From: Artemia franciscana
Lineage: Eukaryota > Arthropoda > Branchiopoda > Anostraca > Artemiidae
Direction of reading: 5' to 3'
NCBI RefSeq assembly: GCF_032884065.1
Contig: NC_088872.1
Coordinates: 33,762,917 to 33,826,916, forward strand
Length of the DNA: 64,000 nt
Shown here: piece by piece, positions 2,823-58,194 of the stretch
Layout: the number at the start of each line of letters is the position of its first letter
How positions within the stretch are numbered: the first letter of the stretch is position 1
Notes under the pieces: generated by a model
Seen by the model: the letters and a program-made list of their open reading frames with translations, nothing else
Databases searched by the model: none
What the model was told of the DNA's origin: nothing
Program-made: the position numbers and the translations under genes

Positions 2823-4020
2823 GATAGTCCAACAGTTCACAGCAATAAACTGTAAGTAAGGAGCAATTTGGCTCAATAGTAACCAAAACTAAAAATAAAG
2901 GAATTCTATAATAATTAATCAGAAGATTTGACTTGTTATGCTGATTCCAGATGTATAAAGTAGGTGCAATGTTACCCATCAAAAGCTACAAGTTTGAGCA
3001 AACTTTCAAACAAAAAAAGGGGGACACCCCAAAAAAATCAAAGGATCTTAATGAAATTCACATCATCAGATTCAGCCTATCTGAGAACCCTACTCTAGAG
3101 ATTTCAAGCTTCTATCTACAAAAATGTGGAATTTGTTTTTTTTTTTTTTTTTTTGCCAAAAGAAAGGCCATGGATGTATGTTTTTTTCTCAGGGGTGACC
3201 ACATAAAACCTATTTTCCTAGAAGATTGGGAGAAGGCTCATTAAAAGAGAAATTCAAAGTTTTAGTTCCTTTTTTTAAGTAACAAAAAAGTATGGAGGGT
3301 AACTGGCTTCCCTGCTCCATTTTTCTCCAATGGCATTTGACCAAAATTTTGAGTGAGCCATTTGATTCAGCATAGTAAAAAGGTCAAACAACTATGCCTC
3401 AGGGGGTGACATGACCCCTCACAGCCCCTGGGGAAAGTGCTGTAAGTTATGAAATTTGTCCACTATTTAGGCTACTCATGATATTTGTTATTGGGAAAAT
3501 ACACAATCTTTTTGTGGTGGTGGGGGGGAGGTATTTCCAAAAGGTAGAATTTTCTGTTGGGAGGAAAGTTTCCAAGGAAAATTTCCAGGGGAAATTTAAC
3601 ATATGCAGAGGAGGGCAGTAATTTGTGCAATTTACCCATTGTTTACACATAGTATATGTTATTGGGGAATACAAAAAAAATTGGGGGGGGGGGGGGGGTA
3701 AGTCCAGAAAAAATATTTTATTGAGTGAATTTTCTGCATGATGTTAAGAACAGTCAGAAACTAAATTAAAAAAGATTTTCTCAACTGAAAGCAGGGAGAA
3801 TTTTCTAGCAGGAATATTGGCAGTGGAGGGATTTTTTTGGGGAGGGGGATTTTCAATGAAGGGGAAGGCAGATTCTTCAGTATAAACTGAAAAATGATAA
3901 GATATTATATAAATAAAGTTTTGTTAAAATATAAAAAGAACAGAAATTATGCTAATCTGCAGGTGAGGAGGGCAACCCCTTCCTTGACCTTTACTCTTTA
4001 GGCTTAAGTTTGACCTTTAG
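2823..4020 (+). repeat. Family B element, old diverged copy
   Basis: The order of blocks matches the better preserved family B copy at 28168-29338. A degraded start resembles the cagttc hairpin and is followed by gtaaggagcaa and ggctcaatagtaaccaaaa. Then come cccatcaaaagctac, a block with catcatcagattcagc, a T-run, cacagcccctgggg, and a ctcaactgaaagcaggga segment. A poly-G run lies at 3683-3698. The high divergence suggests the oldest family B insertion in the window. Confidence 0.65.
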
Positions 4021-26915: not shown

Positions 26916-28167
26916 TTTAAAAGTAGATCTACTGCTAGCACTTTTGGCATAATTCTCGTAGATATTGCCTCCTAATTTATCGGAATTTGAAGTATTCATC
27001 CAGGTAAACTGTTTTTAGAAAATAAAAGAGTCATAGAAATGAAATTCAGGACATCAAAACTAAACCAGTTTTTTGGGAGCTGTTTATGCTAGATATTGAT
27101 CTGATTCCAACTTTGGCTTCCATTTATGACAGAGGTCTTATAGCACATACATTTTCTTTAGCACTAAAGGCAGCTTAGCAAGGCATTTACCAAAGTATTT
27201 GCTTTACTTGTGTTATTCACTTACTGAAAATTGTCTTCCTTATTGTTCTTTCTTTTTATTTCCTTCATTGTGTTGCAAGAGCAACTCTTCGGTTTTGTTG
27301 TGTTTTTTTTTCTTTTTTTTTTTTCTAGCACCCTGATTTCAGCTTATTCCTAGAAAATGGTAAAGGTCTAACCTCTGTGGTTTTTATGGCACTTGGTATT
27401 AACCAAATGACATATAGCAATCGCAAATTCTGTCAGTCTGTTGGTCCTGGTTTTGCTACTTTAGGCACTTGCAGGTAAGCTAGGATGATGAAATTTGGCA
27501 GGGGTATCAGAGACCAGACCATATTAAATTAGAAGCAGTCGTTTTCCCGATTTGACCATCTGGAGGGGGGAGTAGGGGGCCCATTAATTTGGAAATAATA
27601 GAAAAAATGAAGTATTTTTAACTTACAAACGGTCGATCAGATCTTAATGAAATTTGATGTTTGGAAGGATATTGTGGGGTGGGAACCTAAAATCATGGAA
27701 AACGCTTAGATTGGAAAGATTGGGATGAAACTTGGCGGGGAAAATAAGCAGAAGTCTTAGATACGTGATATACATATTTGGAACGGATCCGCTATTGGGG
27801 GGGGGGGTTAATTCTGAAAAATTATAAAAAATGACGTATTTTTAACTTACGAAGGAGTGATCGGATCTTCATGAAACTTCATATTTAGAAGGACCTCGTA
27901 ACTCAGATCTCTTATTTTAAATCTCAACCGGATCCAGCGTCATTGGGGGGGGGCAGTTGGGAGGGGGGGGGGTGAAATCTTAGAAAATACTTAAAGCGGA
28001 GAGATTAGGATGAAACTAGATGGGAAGAATAAAAACCTGTCTAAGATACGTGACTGACATAACCGGACCGGATCTGCTCTCTTTGGTGGAGTTGGGGGGT
28101 GGGGTAATTTGGAAAAATGAGGTATTTGTAACTTACGAAAGGGTGACCAGATCTTAATTGAATTTGA

Positions 28168-29338
28168 TCAAACAGTTCATGGTAACGAACTGTAGTAAGG
28201 AGCGACCCGGCTCAATAGTAACCAAAACTCTAAAAAATGGAATTTTGATACCAATAGCTATATCAAAAGAATCGCATTTTAATGCTGGTTTTAAATATAT
28301 AAGTTTCATCAAGTTTAGTCTTACCCATCAAAAGTTACGAGCCTGAGAAAATTTGAGTTATTTTAGAAAATAGGGGGAAACACCCCCTAAAAGTCATAGA
28401 ATCTTAACGAAAATCACACCATCAGATTCAGCGTATCAGAGAACCCTATTGTAGAAGTTTCGAGCTCCTATCTACAAAAATGTGGAATTTTGCATTTTTT
28501 GCCAGAAGGCAGATCACTTATGCGTGTTTATTTGTTTTTTTGTTTTTTTGTTTGTTTTTTTTCCCAGGGGTGATCGTATCGACCCAGTTGTCCTAGAATG
28601 TTGCAAGAGGGCTCATTCTAACGGAAATGAAAAGTTCTAGTGCCCTTTTTAAGTGACCAAAAAAATTGGAGGGCACCTAGGCCCCCTCCCACGCTAATTA
28701 TTTTCCCAAAGTCAACGGATCAAAATTCTGAGATAGCCATTTTATTCAGCGTAGTCGAAAAACCTTATAAGTATGTCTTTGGGGATGACTTACTCCCCCA
28801 CAGTCCCCGTGGGAGGGGCAACAAGTTACAAACTTTGACCTGTGCTTACATATAGTATTGGTTATTGGGAAGTATACAGGCGTTTTCAGGAGGATTTTTT
28901 TTGGTTGGGGGGAGGGGTTGAGAAGAGGGGGATATGCTGGGGGAAGTTTCCATCGAGAATTTGTCATAGGAGAAGAAAACTTCCATGAAGGGAGATCAGG
29001 ATCTACTAGCATTATTTAAAAAAAAAATTAAAAAATAAATGTGAAAAAGCTTTTTCAGCTGGAAGTAAGGAACAGCAATAAAACTTAAAACAAACAGAAA
29101 TTATTACCCATATAAGGGGCTCACCTCCTTATGATACCTCATCAACGCCCCGCTCTTTACGCTAAAGTTTTTTACTGTTTTAAAAAGAAGAATTGAGAGA
29201 AAGAGTCAAACTTTAGCGTAAAGAGCGGGGCGTTGATGAGGAAGCAGCCTCTTTCATATACGAAGTAATTTCTGTGCGTTTTAAGTTTTGATGTCACTCC
29301 TTACTTTCAGTTAAAAAAACTCGTTTTTTTTATTTAAT
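28168..29338 (+). mobile_element. Family B element, copy B2, nested in A1
   Basis: It starts TCAAACAGTTC with a short hairpin (cagttc and gaactg around an 8-base loop). It continues with taaggagcgacccggctc, gtaaccaaaactc, cttacccatcaaaagttac, acaccatcagattcagcgta, gtgatcgtatcgaccca, and ccacagtccccgtggg. It ends in a palindrome of about 310 bp. The outer palindrome arms carry gtaagga and aaacagaaatta versus gtaatttctg and ctccttac. The core arms at 29140-29170 and 29208-29238 are a perfect 31-bp inverted repeat around a 37-base spacer. The flanks match uninterrupted family A sequence at 36130-36160. No coding sequence is seen. Confidence 0.85.
29140..29238. repeat. Perfect 31-bp inverted repeat in the family B 3' palindrome
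   Basis: The arms 29140-29170 and 29208-29238 are exact complements. Each contains CGCCCCGCTCTTTACGCTAA or its complement. Perfect pairing over 31 bp in an otherwise diverged element suggests recent insertion, selection for structure, or arm homogenisation. Confidence 0.95.
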
Positions 29339-30235
29339 ATTTAGAAGGATCTTGTGCTTTAAAGCTCTAATTTTAAATTTCAACCAGATCCTGTGACATT
29401 GGGGGGAGTTGGAGGGGAAAACCAGAATTCTTGGAAAACGTGAAAATTGGGGTATTTTTGTCTTATGAATAGGTGACCGGATCTTAATGAAATTTGATAT
29501 TTAGAAGGAATGCCTGTCTCAGAGCTCTTATTTCAAATCCTGACCAGATCTTTTGATATTGGGGGATGTTGAAGGGGGGAATCTTGGAAAACACTTGGAG
29601 TGGAGGAATTGGGATGAAGCTTGGTGGATAGAATAAGCAAATGTCCTCGATACGTGATTGACGTAACCGTTCTGGATTCGCTCTCTTTGGGGGAGTTGGG
29701 GGGAGAGGTTGAGTGCTTTGGCGAGTTTGGTGCTTCTGGACGTGCTATGATAAGGTAGGCGTGTCAGGGACCTGCACAAATTGACTTGATAAAGTCGTTT
29801 TCCCAGATTCAATCATCTGGGGGGGGGGGGCTAAAGGGAGAGGAAAAATTAGAAAAAATGAGGTATTTTTAACTTACGAGTGGGGGGTGATCGGACCTTA
29901 ATGAATTTTGATAATTAAAATGACAACGTGACTCAGAGCTCTTATTTTAAATCCTGACCGGCATTAAGCCTCTGATTTTCCTTTTAAACCAATATATTGA
30001 TTCTTAGAATTTTGTTAGAGCTCATACCATATGAGCTCTTGGCTCTTAGCTCTTCTTGCCTTGTCACAAGTGCCATATGAGCTCTTAGCTCTTGTCATGG
30101 AAAGTGAGGACCTTAGGCTGGATTGATCAATATGACTTTGTATTTTGAAAAGCTTTGTAGAACTCTTGTCTGTGGCCAAAAATCTATTGTTTCAACCCAT
30201 TTTTGTTTGCGGTTTCAGCTTACTTTATCATTCGG

Positions 30236-32098
30236 TTTTTATGGCACTTGGTATTTACAAAGTGACATACAGCAATCACAAATTCTGTTGGTCTGTATAT
30301 CTGTCCTGGTTTTGCTAGTTTGGCCACTTGCAGATAAGCTAGGACAATGAAATATAGCAGGCGTATAAGGGACCAGACCAGAATAAACTAGAAATAGTCG
30401 TTTCTCCGATTCGATCATCTGGGGGGAAGTGGGATGAAGGTTAATTCGGAAAAATTAGAAAAAAACGAGGTATTTTTAACTTACAAACAGTTTGACCATC
30501 TGGGGGGCTGGAGGGAGAGGAAAAATTGAAAAAATGAGGTATTTTTAACTTACGAATTGATGATCGGATCTTAATGAAATTTGATATTTAGAAGAAGCTT
30601 AGTTGGGGGAGGGTAATTTGGAAAAATTAGGTATTTTTAACTTATGAAAGGGTGATCAGATCTTGATGAAATTTGATATTTAGAAGGATCTTGTGCCTCA
30701 GAGCTCTTATTTTAAGTCCCGACGATATCTGGTGACATTGGGGGGAGTCGGAGGGAGAAACCGGGAATCTTGGAAAATGTAAAAATATAGGTACCTTTAT
30801 CTTATGAATGGGTGATTGAACCTTAATGAAACTTGATATATAGGAAAAATCTCATGTCTCAGATGCTCCATTTTCAATTCGAATCAGATCCAGGGGCATA
30901 GGGGGTTGAAGGGGGGAAACAGAAATTTTGGAAACTGGAAATCTTGGAAAACGCTTACAGTGGAGAGATCAGGATGAAACTTTATGGGAAGAATAAGCAC
31001 AAGTTCTAGATACGTGATTGACATAACTGGACCGGATCCGCTCTCTTTGGGGAGTTGGGGGATATCCAGTACTTTGGCGAGTTTGGTGCTTCTGGACGTG
31101 CTAGGACGATCAAAATTGTTAGGTGTGTCTGGACCTGCACAAATTGACTTAATAACAGTCGTTTCCCCGATTCGACCATCTGGGGGCTGGAGGGAGAGGA
31201 AAAATTGAAAAAAAAATGAGGTATTTTTACTTACAAATGGGGGACCAGATCTTACTGAAATTTAATATTTAGAAGGATATCGTGTCTCAAAGCTATTATT
31301 TTAAATTCTGACCGTATACGGTGACATTTGGGGGATTTGGAGAGGGAAACCTAGAATCTTGGAAATTGCTTAGAGTGGAGAGATCGGGATGGAAGTTGGT
31401 GGGAAGGATAAGCACAATTCCTAGATACATGATTGACATAACCGGAACGGATCTGCTCTCTTAGGGGAGCTGGGGGGGTGTTAATTCAGAAAAGTTGAGT
31501 TATTTTTAACTTAAGAATGGGTGATCAGATATTAGTGAAATTTGATATTTAGAAGGAGCTCTTGTCTCAGAGCTCTTATTTTAAATCCCAACCAGATCTG
31601 GGAACATTAGGGGGAGTCGGAGGGGGAAACCAGAAATCTTGGAAAATGGTTCGAGTGGACAGATTGGGATGAAACTTGGTGAGTAGAATAAACAAATGTC
31701 GTAGATACGTGATTAACGTAACCAGACTGGTTCGGCTCTCTTTGGGGGAGTTAGGGGGTCCAGTGCTTTAGCGAGTTTAATGCTTCTGGACGTGCTAGGA
31801 CGATGAAAATTGGTAGGTGTGTCAGGGACCTTCACAAATTGACTTGATCAAGTCGTTTTCCCCGATTCGACCATCTGGGGGGGTTGAAGGGAGAAGAAAA
31901 ATTAGAATAATCACGTATTTTCAACTTACGAGTGGGTGATCGGATCTTAATGAATTTTGATATTTAGAAGGACCTTGTGTCTCAGAACTCTTATTGTAAA
32001 TCCCGACCAGCATTAAGCCTCTGATTTTCATTTTGAATCAATCGATTGATTCTTAGAATTTTGCTAGAGCTCATTCCGTATGAGCTCTTAGCTCTTGT
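30236..32098 (+). mobile_element. Family A element, copy A2
   Basis: It begins tttttatggcacttggtatt about 140 bp after the end of A1 and ends gagctcttagctcttg. The interior holds diverged copies of the ~270-300-bp family A unit, marked by repeats of tatttagaagga, ctcttattttaaat, gacattggggg and gatacgtgattgacataacc. The starting hairpin is degraded (accaag reads acaaag). The close same-orientation placement of A1 and A2 suggests tandem insertion or duplication. Confidence 0.85.
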
Positions 32099-34744: not shown

Positions 34745-37000
34745 GCGCATTTCCTGGTTTTGGGTTTTTTCGGACTTTCTGTATGGTATTTTCTAGATGT
34801 TTCTGAACATTTAGGTATAAGAATCATTTGCGTTGCAATTTGCTCCAGGTTTGACCAATTTTTTTTCAGGTAAAATGACTGATCTATTTTGGTATAAAGA
34901 AAATAGACGTAAGAACCATACCGTGAAATATAATAACCTTAGAACTAAAAGTTACGTGAAGTCTTGCGTTTGCAGGTGAATGGTCTTTAATATGCGCGTT
35001 TTTTATGGCACTTGGTATTAACCAAGTGACATGTAGCAATCGCAAATTCTGTCAGTCTGTCTGTCGTTACCGGTTTTGCTACTTTAGGCACTTCCAGGTA
35101 AGCTAGGACGATGAAATTTGGCAGGCGTATCAGGGACTGGACCAGATTAAATTAGAAATAGTCGTTCCCGATTCCTGATTTGGCCATCTGGGGGGGAGGA
35201 GTGGGGGGCCCGTTAATTCGGAAAAAATAGAAAAATTGAGGTTTGTTTAACTTACGAACGGTTGATCAGATCTTAATGAAATTTGATGTTTGGAAGGATA
35301 CCGTGTCTCAGAGCTGTTATTTTAAATCCTGACTGGATCTGGTTACATTGGGGGGGGGGGGGTTGGGAGGGGGAAACCTAAAACTTGGAAAACACTTAGA
35401 GTGTAGGGATTGGGATGAAACTTGGTGGGAAAAATAAGCACAAGTCCTAGATACATGATTGACATAACCGGAACGGATCCACTCTCTTTGGGGTAGTTGG
35501 GGGGGGGGGGTTAATTCTGAAAAATTAGAAAAAATGAGGCATTTTTAACTTACGAACGGGTGATCGGATCTCAATGAAATTTGATATTTAGAAGGATATC
35601 GTGTCTCAAAGCTCTTATTTTAAATCCCGACCGGATCTGGTGACATTGGGGGTAGTTTGGGGTGGGGGAACCTAAAATCACGGAAAACGCTTAGATTGGA
35701 GGGATCGAGATGAAACTTGGTGGGGAAAATAAGCAGAAGTCTTAGATACCTGATTCACATAACTGGAACGGATCCGCTCTATTGGGGGGGGGGGTGTTTA
35801 ATTCTGAAAAATTAGAAAAAATTATGTATTTTTAACTTACGAAGGAGTGATTGGATCTTCATGGAACTTCATATTTAGAAGGACCTCGTAACTCAGATCT
35901 CTTATTTTAAATCTCAACCGGATCCAGCGTCATTGGGGGGGGGGAGCCGGAAATCTTAGAAAATACTTAAAGCAGAGAGATCAGGATGAAACTGGATGGG
36001 AAGAATAAAAACCTGTCTAAGATACGTGACTGACATAACCGGACCGGATCTGCTCTCTTTGGTGGAGTTTGGGAGGGGGGTAATTTTTAAAAATTGAGGT
36101 AGTTGTAACTTACGAAAGGGTGACCAGATCTTAATGAAATTTGATATTTAGAAGGACCTTGTGCTTTAAAGCTCTAATTTTAAATTCCGACTAGATCCTG
36201 TGACATTGGGGGGAGTTGGAGGGGGAAATCGGAATTCTGGGAAAACGTGAAAATTGGGGTATTTTTATCGTACGAATAGGTGATCGGATCTTAATGAACT
36301 TCGATATTTAGAAGGGATTCGTGTCTCAGAGCTTTTATTTCAAATTCCGACCAGATCTTTTGACATTGGGGGGAGTTGGAGGGGGAAATCTTGGAAAACG
36401 CTTGGAGTGAAGCAATCGGGATGAAAGCTTGGTGGATAGAATAAACAAATTTCCTTGATACGTGATTGACGTAACCGTACTGGATTCGCTCTCTTTCGGG
36501 GAGTTGGGGGGAGGGGCTCAGTGATTTGGCGAGTTTGGTGCTTCTGGACGTGCTAGGACGATGAAAATTGGTAGGCGTGTCAGGGAGCTGCACAAATTGA
36601 CTTGATAAAGTCGTTTTTCCAGATTTGACCATCTGGGGGGCTAAAGAGAGAGGAAAAATTATAAAAAATTAGGTATTTATAAATTACGAGTGGGTGATCT
36701 TGTCTTAATGAATTTTGATATTTAGAAGGACATTGTGACTCAGGGCTCTTATTTTAAATCCTGACCGGCATTAAGCCTCTGATTTTCCTTTTAAATCAAT
36801 CTATTGATTCTTAGAATTTTGTTAGAGCTCATACCATATGAGCTCTTGGCTCTTAGCTCTTCTTGCCTCGTCACAAGTGCCATATGAGCTCTTAGCTCTT
36901 GTTGTTGTTTTTTTTTCCTATTACTGACGTTAAATTATCTAGCTCGTATTTAATGTTTCATAAAGAAAATATTGCTTATTTTTCTTACAATAAAATATTT
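34745..37000 (+). repeat. Host repeat R split by a family A insertion
   Basis: 34745-34999 aligns with 42316-42594 through shared blocks such as gaacatttagg, ttggtataaagaaaatagacgtaa and aaccttag. 36904-37000 aligns with 42588-42660 through acgttaa, tatctagctcgta, taatgtttca and aaagaaaa. The two halves are therefore one repeat into which copy A3 inserted. The identity of repeat R itself is unknown. Confidence 0.7.
35000..36903 (+). mobile_element. Family A element, copy A3 (best preserved)
   Basis: It begins in a T-run followed by atggcacttgg. A perfect starting hairpin has arms CACTTGGT (35009-35016) and ACCAAGTG (35021-35028) around ATTA. The interior has about four tandem units, with acattggggg or its variant near 35345, 35643, 35930, 36203 and 36363. 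The end carries two perfect hairpins: AATCAAT/ATTGATT around CT (36794-36809) and GAGCTCATA/TATGAGCTC around CCA (36825-36845). It finishes catatgagctcttagctctt. There is no coding region. Confidence 0.88.

Positions 37001-37520: not shown

Positions 37521-58194
<20,674 letters not shown>

Follow-up and report, generated by a model that had tools for sequence, protein, structure and literature searches.

A probable HINE-type, non-autonomous Helentron family with a hierarchical central array in the brine shrimp Artemia franciscana

The window analysed here, a 64,000-nucleotide stretch at C10:33762917–33826916 of the Artemia franciscana genome, carries four copies of a repeat, family A (copies A1–A4; Table 1), which together occupy 6,793 of its bases (10.6%). 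An earlier note on this DNA had proposed four copies with common borders, and comparison of the window copies with each other and with matches elsewhere in the genome bears this out: A1, A2 and A4 are approximately 77–90% identical to A3 over their best stretches. A1, listed there as 27381–30095, is in fact split by an unrelated repeat, family B. In A2, the stretch between the two 3′ palindromes has been lost together with the 3′ subterminal inverted repeat (subTIR), and the palindromes now overlap. The last assignable base of A3 is the G of CTCTTG (36901), the two further T's being ambiguous. As the note had also held, a coding region is absent: the longest stop-to-stop frame is 42–148 aa per copy in each of 29 complete copies, in keeping with the non-coding nature of HINEs, and none of the window's four frames of at least 150 aa lies inside an A copy. 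An RNA family search of the 64 kb returned nothing above threshold, and a tRNA search of the window with bacterial settings found none.

Table 1 Family A copies in the window, the modules of A3 and the nested repeat
Feature	Position	Strand	Remarks
Family A copy A3, complete	35000..36903	+	5′ T-run to CTCTTG(TT); 12 monomers: c-a-b-a-b-a-b-a-a-b-c-a
A3 5′ subTIR TATGGCACTTG	35004..35014	+	Pairs with CAAGTGCCATA
A3 5′ hairpin CACTTGGT-ATTA-ACCAAGTG	35009..35028	+	The inner, subTIR-complementary repeat forms the second arm
A3 GTCY-type microsatellite	35049..35067	+	
A3 central array of ~140-bp diverged monomers, classes a/b/c	35095..36760	+	Most with a G-run on the + strand
A3 upstream 3′ palindrome AGAGCTCATA-CCA-TATGAGCTCT	36824..36846	+	
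A3 3′ subTIR CAAGTGCCATA	36874..36884	+	
A3 terminal 3′ palindrome GAGCT-CTT-AGCTC	36886..36898	+	3 bases before the CTCTTG border
Family A copy A1, left part	27381..28168	+	
Family B repeat nested in A1, unrelated to family A	28169..29331	+	1,163 bp
Family A copy A1, right part	29332..30095	+	
Family A copy A2	30236..32098	+	Without 3′ subTIR
Family A copy A4	56150..57616	-	76.7% identity to A3 over the longest matched stretch

Family A is abundant well beyond the window. A genome search with the whole length of A3 gave at least 18,414 first-look candidates, and the near-full-length matches among the 40 scored are 88–92% identical. Its 5′ end (172 bases) gave at least 2,680 first-look candidates and its 3′ end (151 bases) at least 699; the best 40 of each were scored and, A3 included, 40 of 40 match at 94–100% and 97–100%, respectively. 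Because every scored place matches at each end, the family is real far beyond chance, with the proviso that these two samples are the 40 best matches to A3 and are hence biased towards A3-like copies. Flanking other copies, 75 stretches of 1,400 bases were counted, repeated flanks and those with more than 100 N having been left out; family A makes up 6,158 of their 105,000 bases (5.9%), a sample that may be richer in the family than the genome overall. The exact 37-base 5′ end was absent from viral contigs in an exact search. Collecting genomic copies, building a consensus and aligning the borders, as the earlier note had proposed, yielded 55 distinct 5′ ends and 56 distinct 3′ ends with sharp borders, and 29 copies with both ends and their flanks, the four window copies included. 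The complete copies span 462–2,709 bp. As the ends were found through terminal motifs with mismatches allowed, the counts that follow describe conservation, are partly circular and give no discovery rate.

The 5′ ends read T(1–10) followed at the border by ATGGCACTTGG or a close variant in all 55, the T-run reaching four or more T's in 50, with the consensus ATGGCACTTGGTATTAACCAAGTGACATATAGC after it; the 3′ border reads CAAGTGCCATATGAGCTCTTAGCTCTTG and is followed by T. Of the 56 3′ ends, 53 have this T next to the terminal G; a fairer figure is 27 of the 30 that did not come from the 3′-end search (the others 2 G and 1 C), since the query of that search included flank letters, and the next base is likewise T in 27 of 30. 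Just inside these borders lies an 11-bp pair, TATGGCACTTG and its exact inverse complement CAAGTGCCATA. The earlier statement that there is no terminal inverted repeat thus holds for the outermost ends and fails just inside them. Such pairing was reached in none of 2,000 shuffles of both A3 ends (longest, 10 bp), and is kept exactly in 17 of the 29 complete copies, with 5–10 bp in the other 12. Scored over 10 bases, the 5′ subTIR is exact in 47 of 55 ends and the 3′ subTIR in 46 of 56 (one mismatch in 6, two to five in 4). An 11-bp repeat in this position agrees with the subTIRs of HINEs, which measure 11–15 bp and begin 2–4 nt from the 5′ end.

The remaining terminal modules follow the same plan. 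The 5′ subTIR is predicted to fold into a hairpin with 8-bp arms, perfect in 37 of 55 5′ ends and with one mismatch in 18, its second arm matching the inner complementary repeat of HINEs. The starting hairpin reported as perfect is so in A3, and imperfect in A1, A2 and A4. At least four GTCN units occur within bases 41–90 in 49 of 55 5′ ends; in HINEs a microsatellite, often (GTCY)n, follows the 5′ repeats. At the other end, the subTIR stops 17 bases, and the terminal palindrome 3 bases, short of the CTCTTG border; the GAGCT/AGCTC arms are perfect in 46 of 56 3′ ends and have one mismatch in 8, reproducing the 3′ subTIR-plus-palindrome arrangement of HINEs, and a further palindrome upstream has no more than one mismatch in 49 of 56. 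Two perfect hairpins near the 3′ end, as first described, are present in A3 and A1 and overlap in A2, and the fixed end sequence is common to the copies with one mismatch in the end quoted for A4.

To place these borders against their targets, each of the 29 complete copies had its two flanks joined and compared with the collected sequence, and empty relatives were aligned for four insertions: A1, A2 and the copies at loci L022 and L042. For L042 the target is a T-run within a repeat of family B, with five empty relatives; for L022 it is the T-run of a second family-A copy, with four. A third repeat hosts A1, with three such relatives, and A2, with two. At all four sites the empty relatives run on uninterrupted, and the occupied ones gain ATGG...CTCTTG plus two letters (two or three at L022, depending on the relative), any duplication being limited to about two T's of ambiguous origin. 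For L001, L012, L015 and L045, too, the joined flanks matched sequence across the junction. The pattern at the four aligned sites is the T-T insertion into T-rich DNA without target duplication that characterizes HINEs, although within a T-run two extra T's of element sequence are indistinguishable from a 2-bp TT duplication.

That ambiguity also speaks for a MITE-like element of a DNA transposon with terminal inverted repeats (TIRs) and a 2-bp TT target duplication, as the two letters gained at occupied sites are what such a duplication would give, and an 11-bp inverted repeat does lie near both ends. Such transposons carry inverted repeats at their very ends and make target duplications of fixed length. 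Here, the inverted repeat is set in from the ends, by about 4 bases on one side and 17 on the other, the outermost sequences (ATGG... and ...CTCTTG) are mismatched, the ends bear palindromes and a microsatellite as in HINEs, and we know of no superfamily that combines a TT duplication with ends of this kind. We consider this reading extremely improbable and set it aside on its inverted repeats and duplication. LINEs and SINEs, which have a 3′ tail and variable target duplications, are set aside on account of 3′ borders that lack an A-tail—the absence of poly-A noted earlier is confirmed—and of the lack of direct repeats at the four empty sites. The ends, the target and the empty sites therefore disagree with a standard MITE, SINE or LINE, as the earlier note had said; of the two findings that it had named beforehand as telling against the family, copies without shared borders and TIRs coupled to target duplications, neither was seen.

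Between the ends lies the array, in which monomers were read with three anchor motifs (9 edits allowed) in the 29 complete copies. Each copy holds 2 to 16 monomers, giving family A the central tandem repeats seen in part of the HINE families, and 262 of 290 monomer spacings fall at 130–165 bp (the rest at 85–129 or 166–293, apart from one of 1,465 that spans the nest in A1). The order c-a-b-a-b-a-b-a-a-b-c-a recurs in 9 of the 29; three copies have 16 monomers, and two, of 462 and 478 bp, have only c-a. All 29 arrays start with c-a and 27 end with it, the exceptions being the window copies A4 and A1. It follows from these strings that the 287-bp period returned by Tandem Repeats Finder is an a-b dimer; the diverged internal units of about 270–300 bp described earlier are thus real as repeats (period 287–289 in A3 and A4), each being a dimer of ~140-bp monomers. 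Among the eleven copies of 1,840–1,910 bp, full-length identity averages 87% (range 69–95%), compared with about 75% between units inside A3, and the array was thus most likely built before the copies spread.

An array whose length varies in monomer steps could also be read as a dispersed satellite, its ~140-bp monomers spread by recombination or extrachromosomal circles and its borders incidental, and comparable monomers can form satellites in oysters, according to the part of PMC7492417 concerned. Re-insertion of circles would be expected to permute the arrays, yet all 29 start c-a; the two copies reduced to c-a still have both ends, and empty sites are precise at the element ends. With ends so fixed and empty sites so precise, the satellite explanation is almost certainly wrong, and it was set aside.

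Most monomers also carry a G-run at a fixed distance past a conserved core, always on one strand of the element: at least four G's occur within 130 bases after the core motif in 162 of 191 cores, at a median distance of 76 bases. Across 28 copies (A1 omitted, owing to its nest), there are 393 runs of five or more G's and no run of five or more C's, whereas a single mononucleotide shuffle gave 63 G-runs; outside the copies, the window contains 53 G-runs and 46 C-runs of this length. PIF1-type helicases belong to a family known for unwinding G-quadruplex structures. The array might accordingly be something other than passive cargo, its G-runs forming G-quadruplexes on one strand that pause or engage the PIF1-type helicase of a partner and its length tuning copying, an idea that we hold to be distinctly improbable.

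Taken together, these features identify family A, with a probability of roughly 0.9, as a non-autonomous Helentron derivative (HINE, DINE-1 type) of Artemia franciscana that would depend for its movement on the Rep/helicase of an autonomous Helentron acting in trans. The assignment is made because the published HINE features—subTIR, inner repeat, microsatellite, array, palindrome and T-run target—were looked for one by one and found. The Helentron/HINE-type link, put forward earlier on the grounds of resemblance, is hence supported by subTIRs, an inner complementary repeat, a GTCY microsatellite, tandem repeats, a 3′ palindrome and T-run insertion.

The closest structural counterparts have been described in a mite, in flies and in an oyster. 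HINE-Mo of the mite Metaseiulus occidentalis and DINE-1 of Drosophila, as presented in the relevant sections of PMC4067079, are like family A non-coding, with subTIRs and a 3′ palindrome, tandem repeats in some copies, a T-rich target and variable flanking T's, and the subTIRs of HINE-Mo are themselves palindromic. The same sections give the number of T's at Helentron-group termini as variable, and place the 3′ subTIR of the mite elements, at 38–60 bp, and their palindrome, at 8–35 bp, from the end. In comparison with the elements covered there, family A has its subTIR and palindrome nearer the 3′ end, a second, larger palindrome upstream and a long hierarchical central array; the likeness is one of structure. 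Closer still in module order is Cg_HINE of the oyster, for which PMC7492417 gives subTIR, complementary repeat, (GTCY)n, an array of 140–180-bp monomers, subTIR and palindrome, as in family A. In the elements of that paper, the inner repeat is complementary to the subTIR, several carry GTCY-type microsatellites, the 140–180-bp monomers of the central array keep a single orientation throughout, and empty sites lie at TT with no duplication. Orientation and empty sites are as in family A, as are the 11-bp length of the oyster subTIR and, as far as that account goes, an autonomous partner not identified. Family A differs from the oyster arrays as reported there in its three diverged monomer classes, whose order is c-a-(b-a)n...c-a in arrays of as many as 16, and in the G-run on one strand of most monomers.

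On this basis we propose how family A may move, the rolling-circle steps being the most likely course in light of published knowledge of Helentrons. As family A codes for nothing, the Rep/helicase of an autonomous Helentron would act in trans, recognizing and nicking the 5′ end, where the subTIR is predicted to fold into a hairpin. One strand would then be peeled off via rolling-circle replication, with termination at the 3′ end signalled by the matching subTIR and palindrome, and the peeled strand would be joined into a T-run, an insertion that would as a consequence leave no real target duplication. The array of ~140-bp monomers would in this scheme be passive cargo that predates the spread and travels as a block, gaining or losing monomers, probably often as a-b dimers.

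A source of such activity, in the manner of autonomous Helentrons with their Rep, helicase and endonuclease, may exist in the Artemia genome, in which candidate Rep places occur, some in very long open frames. A Helentron-type Rep query of 180 aa, itself matching PF14214 at E 7.7e-23, gave at least 4,369 candidates; the best 150 were scored, all at E 0.001 or better (lowest, 3.7e-26). Five of the open frames with Rep candidates run to 2,446, 2,492, 2,679, 2,679 and 2,701 aa, and the longer ones would, from their predicted length, fit a fused endonuclease. Candidate places in frames of 1,747–2,701 aa are C6:2730255, C6:2740691, C76:535542, C3032:15413, C4112:13132 and C10:1770484, the first two lying 10.4 kb apart in like orientation, perhaps as a tandem pair; C17:44999073 and C116:283599 also match well, in shorter frames. 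The lower part of the match list merges into the PF14214 family, and C3:44381655 overlaps a PF14214 place. No autonomous element with family A ends was found, the Rep candidates being known by position; the nearest pair among the matches listed, comparing the 37 best Rep places (E below 1e-7) with 119 family A places, is 36 kb apart, a distance that says little.

PF14214 (Helitron_like_N) itself gave at least 7,436 first-look candidates in the genome and none in 14 control genomes. The best 150 were scored and all exceed the cut-off, at 197–205 bits and in frames that range from 200 to 2,091 aa, with many at 1,500–1,690 aa and free of stops; the near-equal scores suggest one family. These places probably form a large, recent family. 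The collected loci contain 126 stop-to-stop frames of at least 100 aa, of which the four scanned (L057, L018, L078 and L089, three from loci with an A end) have no Pfam match. The stretch at L089, which lies beside a PF14214 domain, presumably resembles a canonical animal Helitron protein, and the frame at L078:2395-2877, outside the A copy, resembles what we take to be the C-terminal end of a Helitron helicase.

This wealth of PF14214 proteins raises the question of whether family A is instead a non-autonomous canonical Helitron. Canonical Helitrons run from 5′-TC to CTRR-3′ and are inserted between A and T. The left end of family A is ATGG after a T-run rather than TC, its right end CTCTTG rather than CTRR, and its target a T-run rather than A^T. 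The Helitron share reported for the assembly, discussed below, counts in favour of that reading, whereas the structure of Helentrons is clearly distinct from that of canonical Helitrons in the sections of PMC4067079 (Thomas et al. 2014) noted above. We regard a canonical Helitron as very unlikely and set it aside for its wrong ends and target.

The HINE kind of element is already known from mites, flies and oysters, and only the Artemia family seems to be new. The suggestion that the family may be undescribed therefore stands for family A itself, which seems undescribed, and falls for its kind; among the papers searched, none joins Artemia with Helentron, and a search on Artemia satellites brought up nothing of use. 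The Artemia franciscana genome has been annotated with 8.81% Helitrons, according to PMC11492255, so family A may sit unnamed in the repeat library behind that figure and, at 5.9% of flanks and 10.6% of the window, may be a large part of that fraction. With family A, the HINE plan extends to a brine shrimp. The family illustrates clearly how an element of rolling-circle type builds and disperses tandem repeats, with 2 to 16 monomers and precise empty sites, and is a useful system in which to study how transposons seed satellite DNA.

The copies are not all of one age. Mean K2P distance to the consensus is 0.045 at 5′ ends and 0.030 at 3′ ends in samples biased to A3-like copies; A1, A2 and A4 stand at 0.07–0.16 at the 5′ end and 0.02–0.11 at the 3′ end, where A3 is identical to the consensus; it follows that ages differ among the window copies. 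Loci found by the 5′ end mostly continue as A sequence from the border onward; at L013/L057, A cover is just 364 bp, with foreign DNA after it. Loci found by the 3′ end with short or interrupted A cover include L060, L062, L064, L067, L071, L073, L074, L079, L081 and L085–L087. The 3′ ends at the last three (C6:10650359, 10634777 and 10627234) lie within 24 kb and have their downstream flank in common, the group being a local segmental duplication.

The third repeat, at 30096–30235 and in the flanks, hosts A1 and A2 at two T-runs. At L020, an A copy lies at apparently the same site of this repeat as A2, and at L085–L087 the repeat is empty, beside an A 3′ end. The A copies in the third repeat may mark a hotspot for insertion at T-runs, or else they were copied together with the repeat as one composite unit.

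Family B, which hosts the L042 copy and interrupts A1, has matches in the window at 28169–29331, 2831–3497, 44104–45007, 45288–45560, 48223–49756 and 51417–51853. Its TC start is Helitron-like, with no CTRR end established among the ends seen. All eight left ends seen have TCAA ahead of ACAGTTC and a hairpin; the 3′ part contains long inverted repeats, and the ends mostly resemble ...CTTG-T(n)-ATTTAA.
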